Assembly (NCBI GenBank): GCA_021604765.1
Contig: BQJP01000025.1
Coordinates: 1 to 38,625 of the forward strand
Direction: 5' to 3'
Source of the DNA: Thermodesulfobacteriota bacterium
GTDB taxonomy: Bacteria; Desulfobacterota_D; UBA1144; Nemesobacterales; UBA2774
Length of the DNA: 38,625 nt
The translations under genes and the position numbers were made by a program. Below are positions 7,761 to 9,645 of the stretch, in pieces. Each line of letters begins with the position of its first letter. Position 1 is the first letter of the stretch. The notes beneath the pieces are model-generated. The model searched no databases. It was given only the letters and a program-made list of their open reading frames with translations, and had not been told where the DNA came from.

Positions 7761-8894
7761 TTAAGTCAAGAAGTCTTTTAATATATACCCTTCTTCTGAA
7801 GCCGCTATTTTTTTAAGTGCTATAGTTTCAATTTGTCTTATACGTTCTCTGCTCAAGCTATATTTAAGTGCTATCTGTTCGAGCTTATGAGGATCTTCAT
7901 AATCAATGCCGAACCTCATTTTTAGCACATCTCTTTCTCTATCGGATAATTGTCTAAGCGATCTCCTAACTCTTTTTGTCATAGAGTTCTCAGCAATGTA
8001 ATAGTCGGCTTTCTTGCTGTTAGGGTCAGGAACTATGTCTAGATAGGTTTTAGTGTCTTCATCCACTCCTGATACTTCTAAGGGAACAGTTAGATTTCTT
8101 CCCCTTAGAATAGTGTTTACTACATCTTTGGAGAGACCTGTTTCTAGAGCTATTTCTTCGCTATCAGCTGTTTTTTCTCTATTATATTCTAGCCTGGCTT
8201 TTGCTTTAAAAACTACAGATGCTTGCTCCTGTAAATAGACCGGGATAGAAATTACCTTCGTTTGTTCCATGATCGCTCTGGATAATGACTGATGTATCCA
8301 CCAAGCACTGTAGGTTGAGAATTTAAATCCCTTTGTATGATCAAATTTTTCAACTGCTTTCATCAGTCCTATATTCCCTTCTTGTATCAAATCAGAGAGT
8401 GGAAGACCTCTGCTTTGATACCTATTGGCTAGATCAATTACAAATCTCAAATTGGACTTGATAAATTTCTCTCTAATCCTCAGTACTCTATCATTAAATA
8501 GTCTCTGCTTAGCTTGAAGATATGCTGTGTTTGTTTTTTTTGTATAGGTTTTTTTGCTATCTATTGTGTTCAGCTGTTCGAGTATTTCTTTAGTCTTTTC
8601 TTTGCAAATTTTTAACTGTGCCGCTAGAGCTAATTCATCTCGTCTGCTAAGGAGCCCCTCACCGTTTAAGTCTTTATAATATGCGAAAAGCAGTCTATAG
8701 TTTTTATTAACTGTTCCTGTATCAATTTCTGCTTCATCAGTTTCTGATTCCTTGTGTTCATCTTGATTATTGTCGGCATCAAAATTGATTTCATTTGCGG
8801 AATAATTTTGCTCAGAATCTTCTGATACAATGATCTCTGAGTGCTCAAAGGCATTGGTTAATAATTCATTCCCCTCTATTTGTTTAAGTGCCAT
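7761..8894 (-). CDS. Sigma-70-family factor, group 2 (RpoS/RpoD-like, no region 1.1)
   Basis: A 377-residue RNA polymerase sigma factor with regions 1.2 to 4.2. The first ~65 residues are acidic and unlike region 1.1. Region 1.2 spans about 68-98 ('YYKDLNGEGLLSRRDEL'). Region 2 spans 144-212, with the core-binding 'LPLSDLIQEGNIGLMKAVEKF' stretch and region 2.4 'STYSAWWIHQSLSRAI'. Region 3 spans about 214-290 and region 4 about 310-366, with the helix-turn-helix 'YSLSRERIRQIE'. Region 4.2 keeps the residues that read a housekeeping -35 element. In region 2.4 the usual 'WWIRQAIT' is 'WWIHQSLS'. The lack of region 1.1 and of the long non-conserved region points to an alternative, stationary- or stress-type factor. 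Translation starts behind GAGGAT; two palindromes overlap its promoter region. Confidence 0.9.
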   Translation of the reverse strand: MALKQIEGNELLTNAFEHSEIIVSEDSEQNYSANEINFDADNNQDEHKESETDEAEIDTGTVNKNYRLLFAYYKDLNGEGLLSRRDELALAAQLKICKEKTKEILEQLNTIDSKKTYTKKTNTAYLQAKQRLFNDRVLRIREKFIKSNLRFVIDLANRYQSRGLPLSDLIQEGNIGLMKAVEKFDHTKGFKFSTYSAWWIHQSLSRAIMEQTKVISIPVYLQEQASVVFKAKARLEYNREKTADSEEIALETGLSKDVVNTILRGRNLTVPLEVSGVDEDTKTYLDIVPDPNSKKADYYIAENSMTKRVRRSLRQLSDRERDVLKMRFGIDYEDPHKLEQIALKYSLSRERIRQIETIALKKIAASEEGYILKDFLT

Positions 8895-8920: not shown

Positions 8921-8981
8921 TTTAGGGTAACTAATGTTTAGGAACCCTAAATAAATATAATAAATTTTTTTCAGAAATCAA
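8921..8981 (-). promoter_or_regulatory. Sigma factor gene promoter with two palindromic operators
   Basis: Read on the minus strand, TTGATT (8981-8976) and TATATT (8959-8954) with a 16-bp spacer form a good promoter. Its upstream end lies inside the last codon of the MarR gene. Just downstream lie TTTAGG-AAC-CCTAAA (8937-8951, perfect 6+3+6) and a weaker copy TTTAGG-GTA-ACTAAT (8921-8935), with centres 16 bp apart. Both match the palindrome upstream of the MarR gene. A repressor bound here would cover the transcription start. Confidence 0.6.
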
Positions 8982-9589
8982 TGTTTTTTGTAGTGAGGAC
9001 ATTCTTTACATATATCATCTTCGCTTAGGAGTGTGTGGAGTTGCTCACAATAGTGGGGTTTAGGATCACCTATAAATCTATCTCTGCTAAAATAACAACA
9101 ATCTGTGCAAATATCACTACTGAAGATAAGTCCTTTATCAGTAAGTCTCTCTGTTATTCTATGAAGTAGATTCTCAAGTATCTCTTGTTCTTTCTCTGTG
9201 AATTCTGAAACTATTTCTTCAAGTTCTATTCCTATGTCTTCAAGTAAGTTCACCGCACGGATGCCACTTTGAGTCAAGTCTAGATGGACTTTTCTTCGAT
9301 CCTCCAAGTCTCGGCTTCTTAAGATCAGCTTTTTCTTTTCTAAAGAATCTATAATTCCGCTTGCTGTTGCAGGAGCGCATGAAAGGTTTTTCGCAATATT
9401 ACCAACTGTGATCGCTTCTTTTCTTGTGTAATTAATAAATAGGAGTGTTTTGATTTGAACCGGTGTAAGGTGTTCAATTTTACTCTTATCCCAGAAGATA
9501 TTCCTTACAGCCTGGCTTATACTAAAAAAGGTTCTAGTTATTTGGCCGCCTAAATTATTCTGACGGTAAAGTGGATCAAAGATAGACAT
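8978..9589 (-). CDS. MarR-family regulator with a cysteine-rich C-terminal extension
   Basis: A 203-residue protein, about 50 longer than a usual MarR repressor. Residues 20-150 form the dimeric winged-helix domain: recognition region 'TVGNIAKNLSCAPATASGII' and wing 'RSRDLEDRRKVHLDLTQSG'. The extra tail (151-203) holds Cys161, Cys164, Cys165, Cys181, Cys194 and Cys197, with His179 and His199 alongside, in a CxxCC...HYC...CxxC pattern. Such spacing suggests a Zn or Fe-S site and hence metal or redox sensing; this is inference. The ATG is preceded by AAGGTGA. A palindrome 12 bp upstream of the ATG implies autoregulation, and the same palindrome lies before the sigma factor gene just downstream. 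Confidence 0.85.
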   Translation of the reverse strand: MSIFDPLYRQNNLGGQITRTFFSISQAVRNIFWDKSKIEHLTPVQIKTLLFINYTRKEAITVGNIAKNLSCAPATASGIIDSLEKKKLILRSRDLEDRRKVHLDLTQSGIRAVNLLEDIGIELEEIVSEFTEKEQEILENLLHRITERLTDKGLIFSSDICTDCCYFSRDRFIGDPKPHYCEQLHTLLSEDDICKECPHYKKH

Positions 9590-9601: not shown

Positions 9602-9645
9602 TTTAGGATACCTAATAGATCTTAGTTAATACAAGTTAATACAAT
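9602..9645 (-). promoter_or_regulatory. MarR gene upstream region: palindromic operator and tandem 10-mer
   Basis: TTTAGG-ATA-CCTAAT (9602-9616) is a 6+3+6 palindrome, one mismatch from perfect, and shares its half-sites with the pair before the sigma factor gene. Immediately upstream is a tandem repeat of TTAATACAA(G/T) at 9626-9635 and 9636-9645. Each copy gives a TTGTAT on the minus strand that could serve as a -35; TATCCT (9610-9605), inside the palindrome, could be the -10. The operator would thus overlap the promoter of its own regulator gene. Confidence 0.55.

Follow-up and report, generated by a model that had tools for sequence, protein, structure and literature searches.

What would a MarR-type regulator do with a cysteine-bearing tail, and which genes would such a protein control? 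The question is raised by a gene in the window, the whole 38,625-nucleotide stretch of DNA analysed here. An earlier note had described its product as a complete winged-helix domain followed by a tail with six cysteines (Cys161, 164, 165, 181, 194, 197) and two histidines (His179, His199), possibly a metal or redox switch. All eight residue numbers were correct on recheck, and the span that had been given for the tail (8978-9136) corresponds to residues 152-203 plus the stop codon. The gene and its parts are as follows.

8978..9589, minus strand: MarR-type regulator with a Cys4 tail, 203 aa (open reading frame with an ATG start; Pfam MarR; orthologues)
9287..9469, minus strand: winged-helix MarR domain, residues 41-101 (Pfam PF01047; helices and wing confident in AlphaFold2)
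8981..9118, minus strand: C-terminal tail, residues 158-203, with the Cys4 site and H179 (invariant in 15/15 orthologues)
9107..9109, minus strand: C161 codon (invariant in the 15-row alignment)
9098..9100, minus strand: C164 codon (invariant in the 15-row alignment)
9047..9049, minus strand: C181 codon (invariant in the 15-row alignment)
8999..9001, minus strand: C197 codon (invariant in the 15-row alignment)

The cysteine-bearing tail and its conservation

The protein matches the MarR model PF01047 at residues 41-101 with 46.1 bits (cut-off 24.6), which bears out the claim that a complete winged-helix domain precedes the tail. Its best sequence match among solved structures is MepR (E 1.5e-11). 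In the AlphaFold2 monomer, helices at residues 13-36, 107-128 and 132-151, with strands 89-93 and 101-105 between, agree with the helical dimerisation arms that flank the winged helix in MarR proteins. The Rrf2 domain of IscR, NsrR and RirA (PF02082) scored 15.4 bits against a cut-off of 30, below the level of membership. Known MarR repressors (PF01047; MepR, AdcR, OhrR) likewise have a winged helix and, often, an inverted repeat by their own gene, but the window protein has ~50 extra residues that contain the Cys4 site. Among the 60 solved chains listed (the best 60 of 72 matched), no alignment extended beyond residue 153, and the tail is therefore regarded as an addition.

None of the Pfam or NCBIfam matches above cut-off reached into the tail. 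DUF1284 matched below its cut-off (E 0.12) and was judged a chance match. A tail profile compared with solved structures gave five matches up to E 10, none of them credible; the best was ribosomal protein L32 (E 0.028), which shares one CX2C only. The AlphaFold2 model, built from 14 alignment rows, had pLDDT <50 at residues 158-186 and 191-203 and displayed no cysteine cluster geometry. The cysteine spacings of HiPIP and of family-4 uracil-DNA glycosylase were also weighed as possible likenesses. Among the papers listed from an open-licence library, none dealt with this Cys4 MarR tail or with the operator predicted below.

The gene has 15 orthologue loci, spread over 14 of the 57 genomes in the phylum group. 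C161, C164, H179, C181 and C197 are invariant in an alignment of these 15 orthologues, whose identity falls as low as 45%, as are F167, P178, Y180, E196 and P198. The remaining positions are less conserved: C165 is a cysteine in 14/15, C194 in 9/15, and H199 a histidine in 8/15. In 40 relatives from outside these orthologues, no cysteine stands at either the C165 or the C194 position. A histidine three residues past the last cysteine occurs in 37 of these 40 relatives, at a position where 14/15 Dadabacteria orthologues have Tyr or Phe. The earlier note had named loss of the tail cysteines in orthologues as the finding that would undo its claim; by alignment, four of the six are conserved. Its larger set of six cysteines and two histidines is thereby reduced, with C161, C164, C181, C197 and H179 standing and C165, C194 and H199 falling away as variable.

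The Cys4 core, spaced CX2C-X16-C-X15-C in the window protein, recurs in MarR relatives from Paenibacillales, Nostoc, Bacteroidota, Rhizobiaceae and gammaproteobacteria, and the four cysteines were invariant in 20/20 selected tails. A more distant Dadabacteria paralogue group, OG2, follows the same plan and occurs also on plasmids of Pseudomonas, Enterobacter, Vibrio and Phaeobacter. Relatives spanning 80% or more of the window protein were present in 23 plasmid records; 13 of these were fetched and all 13 had the Cys4 tail, as did 5/5 fetched plasmid records matching an OG2 protein. In 198 genomes of the Paenibacillus order, 13 places matched at E 6e-69 or better, with the tail intact in 12 and the gene broken in the tail at the other (L087). 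The 13 named relative-bearing loci in the genome collection are labelled Candidatus Dadabacteria (8), Desulfobacterota or Deltaproteobacteria (3), Paenibacillus (1) and, nearest at 87%, Thermodesulfobacteriales. A scan of viral contigs confirmed no relative, phage records gave two partial matches, both to the winged helix, and the OG2 gene had no counterpart at the DNA level in E. coli genomes.

How constant is the spacing? In 55/55 tail-bearing proteins, a CX2C is followed by 11-16 residues, a cysteine, exactly 15 residues and the last cysteine. The set comprised 15 proteins from Dadabacteria, 10 from Paenibacillales, 11 from plasmids (Nostoc, Bacteroidota, Paraburkholderia, Rhizobiaceae) and 19 from OG2; it was selected with a looser form of the motif (last gap 13-17), and so the count speaks for a constant spacing and is not an unbiased frequency. 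The equivalent of H179 is a histidine in 36/36 of these proteins outside OG2 and in 10/19 within it. As judged from the alignments, the candidate ligand set common to the relatives is the four cysteines. On the tree, OG2 splits from the rest at 94/91, and the Dadabacteria orthologues (78/91), the Paenibacillales (99/99) and the broad plasmid set (83/85) account for one change each.

The sigma-70 partner and the predicted operators

The next gene downstream encodes a sigma factor, and inverted repeats lie before both genes.

7761..8894, minus strand: group-2-like sigma-70 factor, 377 aa, next gene downstream of marR (Pfam regions 2 and 4)
9602..9616, no strand assigned: predicted operator O1, ATTAGGTATCCTAAA in minus-strand reading, 12 bp before the marR start codon
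8937..8951, no strand assigned: predicted operator O2, TTTAGGGTTCCTAAA in minus-strand reading, 42 bp before the sigma start codon
8921..8935, no strand assigned: weaker further site next to O2, differing from WTTAGGnnnCCTAAW at one position (genome motif scan)

Sigma regions 2 and 4 scored above their Pfam cut-offs and region 3 just below (23.4 vs 25.3). The protein passed a general sigma-70 model and fell far below the equivalog cut-offs of the RpoD and RpoS models, and for this reason it is called group-2-like. Clustering of open reading frames placed a same-strand sigma-70 gene directly after marR at 15/15 loci, with gaps of 42-104 bp; the sigma gene runs off the contig at L037 and L042, and at L033 marR was masked in the clustering by an overlapping frame. 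Within the window's family the order ABC transporter, GHMP kinase, marR, sigma, carbonic anhydrase, ispH is mostly kept, and in other families the surroundings of the pair differ. In a tree of the linked sigma genes, the nine from the window's family group formed a supported clade. One of the nine is from G008, where marR would fall off the contig. The sigma genes of L039-L041 lie outside this clade, and the linked sigma genes as a whole need three changes on the tree, which does not demonstrate a single origin. Sigma-70 genes are expanded in the window's genome, where a threshold of E 1e-30 gives 11 matches, the linked sigma factor among them; among the 57 genomes the counts are 7-15 in families f1 and f4 but 3-7 in f6 and 3-5 in f8. 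At L038 (6688-7065) lies that genome's second marR-sigma pair, in which the sigma gene is a 125-residue remnant without the middle of the protein.

The inverted repeat was first spotted by eye in upstream alignments and then counted against the motif TTTAGGnnnCCTAAA. In the gap between marR and sigma, a site with 0-2 mismatches was present at 15/15 loci; at each locus no more than 2 of 400 shuffles did as well. Upstream of marR such a site was present at 14/15 loci (matched by at most 7 of 400 shuffles), 12-15 bp from the first codon in 13 of the 14 and at 35 bp in L036. The exception is L039, whose best upstream site had 3 mismatches and was equalled by 40/400 shuffles. These counts rest on 30 bases of readable upstream sequence at L033, on an aligned first codon of ATT at L038, and on a gap scanned as 89 bp at L100 (true length 86). 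Second repeats similar to the site at 8921..8935 were noticed by eye in several relatives.

The sites were also placed in the context of whole genomes. In the 3.4 Mb genome of the window, WTTAGGnnnCCTAAW occurs exactly three times; two of these sites (8937-8951 and 9602-9616) flank marR and the third lies elsewhere. O2 is the only exact match to the strict motif TTTAGGnnnCCTAAA in that genome. Among 28 genomes scanned, the strict motif was exact at the marR locus in 12 of the 14 that bear the gene. The 28 genomes hold 19 exact sites, 14 at the marR locus and 5 elsewhere, against 17 for the mirrored control; the 14 comprise those of the 12 gene-bearing genomes, one at the G008 contig edge beside the sigma gene and one at a second G032 contig end. 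When one mismatch was allowed in the window's genome, WTTAGGnnnCCTAAW gave 46 sites against 71 for its mirrored control, which is no genome-wide excess. A wider direct regulon was considered and rejected: the five off-locus sites (G007, G010, G016, G018, G022) do not exceed the control count of 17, and by eye they fall within or close to unrelated open reading frames, as does the remaining WTTAGGnnnCCTAAW site in the window's genome.

The presence of a repeat in front of each gene suggests autorepression by the MarR protein and repression of the sigma factor. At L040-L042, a TTGACA, 17 nt and a -10-like hexamer were seen by eye to end one base before the marR site, a position that fits repression. 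A promoter-like match in the window, TTGATT-16-TATATT ending two bases before O2, is weak, with 1 found against 2.7 expected by chance.

Operators and neighbour genes of relatives

A shorter form of the repeat, WWAGGnnnCCTWW, was present in 9 of 11 plasmid loci outside OG2 (11 sites; control 2) and in 1 of 13 OG2 loci (control 3), and none of 10 Paenibacillales loci had it (control 6). Of the Nostoc sites, one falls between tpx and marR, and another precedes a thioredoxin gene. In Rhizobiaceae, the site lies 11-13 bp before the candidate marR start at 6/7 loci, as in Dadabacteria; two of these six candidate starts differ from the annotation. Further sites precede a TlpA-SOD-marR run in Rhizobium SSA_523 and a DUF2024-to-marR run in Spirosoma. 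The same half-sites thus occur before marR genes of Nostoc and Rhizobiaceae that have no sigma gene following, which points to the MarR protein as the binder. The OG2 proteins share the Cys4 core and the X15 spacing, but their predicted operator differs. Relatives with the recognition helix KGT-SQ in place of PAT-S go with another repeat, GTATCGAnTCGATAC or variants of it; the OG2 pattern GTATYGAnTCRATAC was exact in 3/13 OG2 loci, and variants were seen by eye in others.

It is possible, with a very small probability, that the inverted repeat is bound by some other factor (for example in the sigma factor's own regulation) while MarR acts elsewhere, as the Paenibacillales relatives without the repeat would allow, but the inverted-repeat form is expected for a dimer, and the repeats in Nostoc and Rhizobiaceae and the different repeat that accompanies KGT-SQ all speak for MarR.

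What might a MarR protein of this kind sense? In a raw count, seven of the ten annotated plasmid loci had at least one neighbour that was judged to be a redox-, peroxide-, NO- or oxygen-related gene. These neighbours include Tpx, catalase, SOD, globins and redoxins. The three loci with no clear redox gene are those of Spirosoma (thiamine genes), Leisingera (sulfite oxidase and a sigma gene) and S. fredii (response regulators and hypotheticals). Of 48 loci scanned, 19 encode a small CPVC protein with a thioredoxin fold, whose copies are 55-78% identical between phyla; the 19 include 10/10 in Paenibacillales, 5/6 of Dadabacteria OG2, and those of Nostoc, Pseudomonas, Enterobacter and Lelliottia. 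None of 14 Dadabacteria loci of the window's group encodes this protein, and at E 1e-10 the window's genome has no copy of it.

Several other arrangements were seen around the relatives. In Leisingera, a sigma-70 gene (L067 3968-4771) is divergent from an OG2-type Cys4 MarR and is possibly a second sigma pairing. The window's genome also has an OG2 Cys4 MarR paralogue (L110 8793-9374, C1), which, as at L111-L113 in three relatives, lies just before tig-clpP-clpX-lon (names by eye). Small thioredoxin/glutaredoxin, DUF2024 and Rho-binding antiterminator genes are divergent from OG2 marR in Pseudomonas, Enterobacter and Lelliottia. At four Rhizobiaceae loci the gene after marR encodes a 238-residue hypothetical protein, of which the L063 copy has no Pfam match.

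L095 4027-4858, L096 3954-4873, L098 3954-4874: conserved divergent thioredoxin/glutaredoxin-DUF2024-antiterminator set
L063 5656-6372, L066 5654-6370, L176 5630-6346, L177 5624-6340: 238-residue hypothetical protein

The putative cofactor and a proposed mechanism

As far as comparison of sequences reaches, the Cys4 core, the inverted repeats at the locus and the marR-sigma pair are conserved. What, then, would the Cys4 site hold? An iron-sulfur cluster is favoured over zinc, given a site made up of a single CX2C plus two lone cysteines and given the NO, oxygen and peroxide genes found beside relatives. A metal or Fe-S switch, as had been proposed, is still the best reading of the tail, at a site that would consist of Cys4, perhaps with H179, and not of six cysteines and two histidines.

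Zinc is an unlikely but serious alternative, bound either structurally or in a form lost on thiol oxidation, so that the protein would be a zinc-stabilised repressor or a zinc-thiol switch acting at the same operators. Four invariant cysteines suit Zn(Cys)4 equally with Fe-S, and the CPVC partner gene of Paenibacillales and many other relatives suits thiol chemistry. Two CX2C knuckles are common in zinc ribbons, but the tail has a single CX2C and two lone cysteines. The protein also scored 30.6 bits against a cut-off of 175 with NF038251, the equivalog model of AdcR-type zinc MarR proteins, and falls outside that family. It is improbable that the tail works without metal, as a thiol-disulfide switch like that of OhrR-type MarR proteins, with thioredoxin to reset it. 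The four invariant cysteines and the 19 loci with CPVC neighbours would agree with such a switch, but the CPVC gene is missing from the 14 orthologue loci scanned and, at E 1e-10, from the window's genome, and the constant X15 before the last cysteine better fits a cofactor site.

Are there precedents for an Fe-S cluster in such a position? SufR-type repressors have a winged helix with C-terminal cluster ligands, like the repressor proposed here; their helix-turn-helix family and cysteine pattern differ from those of the window protein. SufR-type Fe-S repressors are named in PMC12343034, which also describes ArnR of Corynebacterium, a MarR/ArsR-like winged-helix protein with C-terminal cysteines that binds [4Fe-4S]. 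DNA binding by ArnR is reportedly lost with NO, and the protein controls narK and hmp (PMC12343034). By this account, NO can abolish DNA binding by a MarR/ArsR-like repressor that has C-terminal cysteines and a [4Fe-4S] cluster. In a comparison of positions only, the three conserved cysteines reported for ArnR (179, 193, 223) contain no CX2C, in contrast to the CX2C-X16-C-X15-C of the window protein. ArnR is an analogue with a different cysteine spacing.

The explanation preferred here, which has perhaps an even chance of being right, is that the window protein is an autorepressor whose Cys4 cofactor site senses redox stress and releases the sigma factor. A dimeric MarR-type repressor with this added C-terminal site would bind TTTAGGnnnCCTAAA before its own gene and before the downstream sigma-70 gene. 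C161, C164, C181 and C197 would hold an iron-sulfur cluster. If the cluster were lost, or suffered oxidative or nitrosative damage, DNA binding would weaken. The marR and sigma genes would then be released, and the sigma factor would redirect RNA polymerase. A role as a sensor is suggested by the neighbour genes of relatives together with the predicted operators. The earlier finding of an unusual MarR tail is confirmed as real and gains a predicted operator and a sigma-factor target.

A broader and more tentative proposal is that Cys4-MarR proteins are an undescribed, widespread family of repressors with an Fe-S sensing domain, which would guard thioredoxin, peroxidase and globin genes elsewhere and which was rewired in Dadabacteria to a group-2 sigma factor. 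In that case, a redox sensor in Dadabacteria would switch an entire sigma regulon through direct repression, with no anti-sigma factor involved. Few Fe-S repressors are on record, and a redox cofactor within a MarR protein would, if true, add a new class to them. The idea is testable now through the predicted operator, the Cys4 core and the existence of culturable relatives (Paenibacillus, Nostoc, rhizobia). For Dadabacteria, which have many sigma-70 paralogues and are beyond ordinary genetics, it offers a concrete handle on what may activate one sigma-70.
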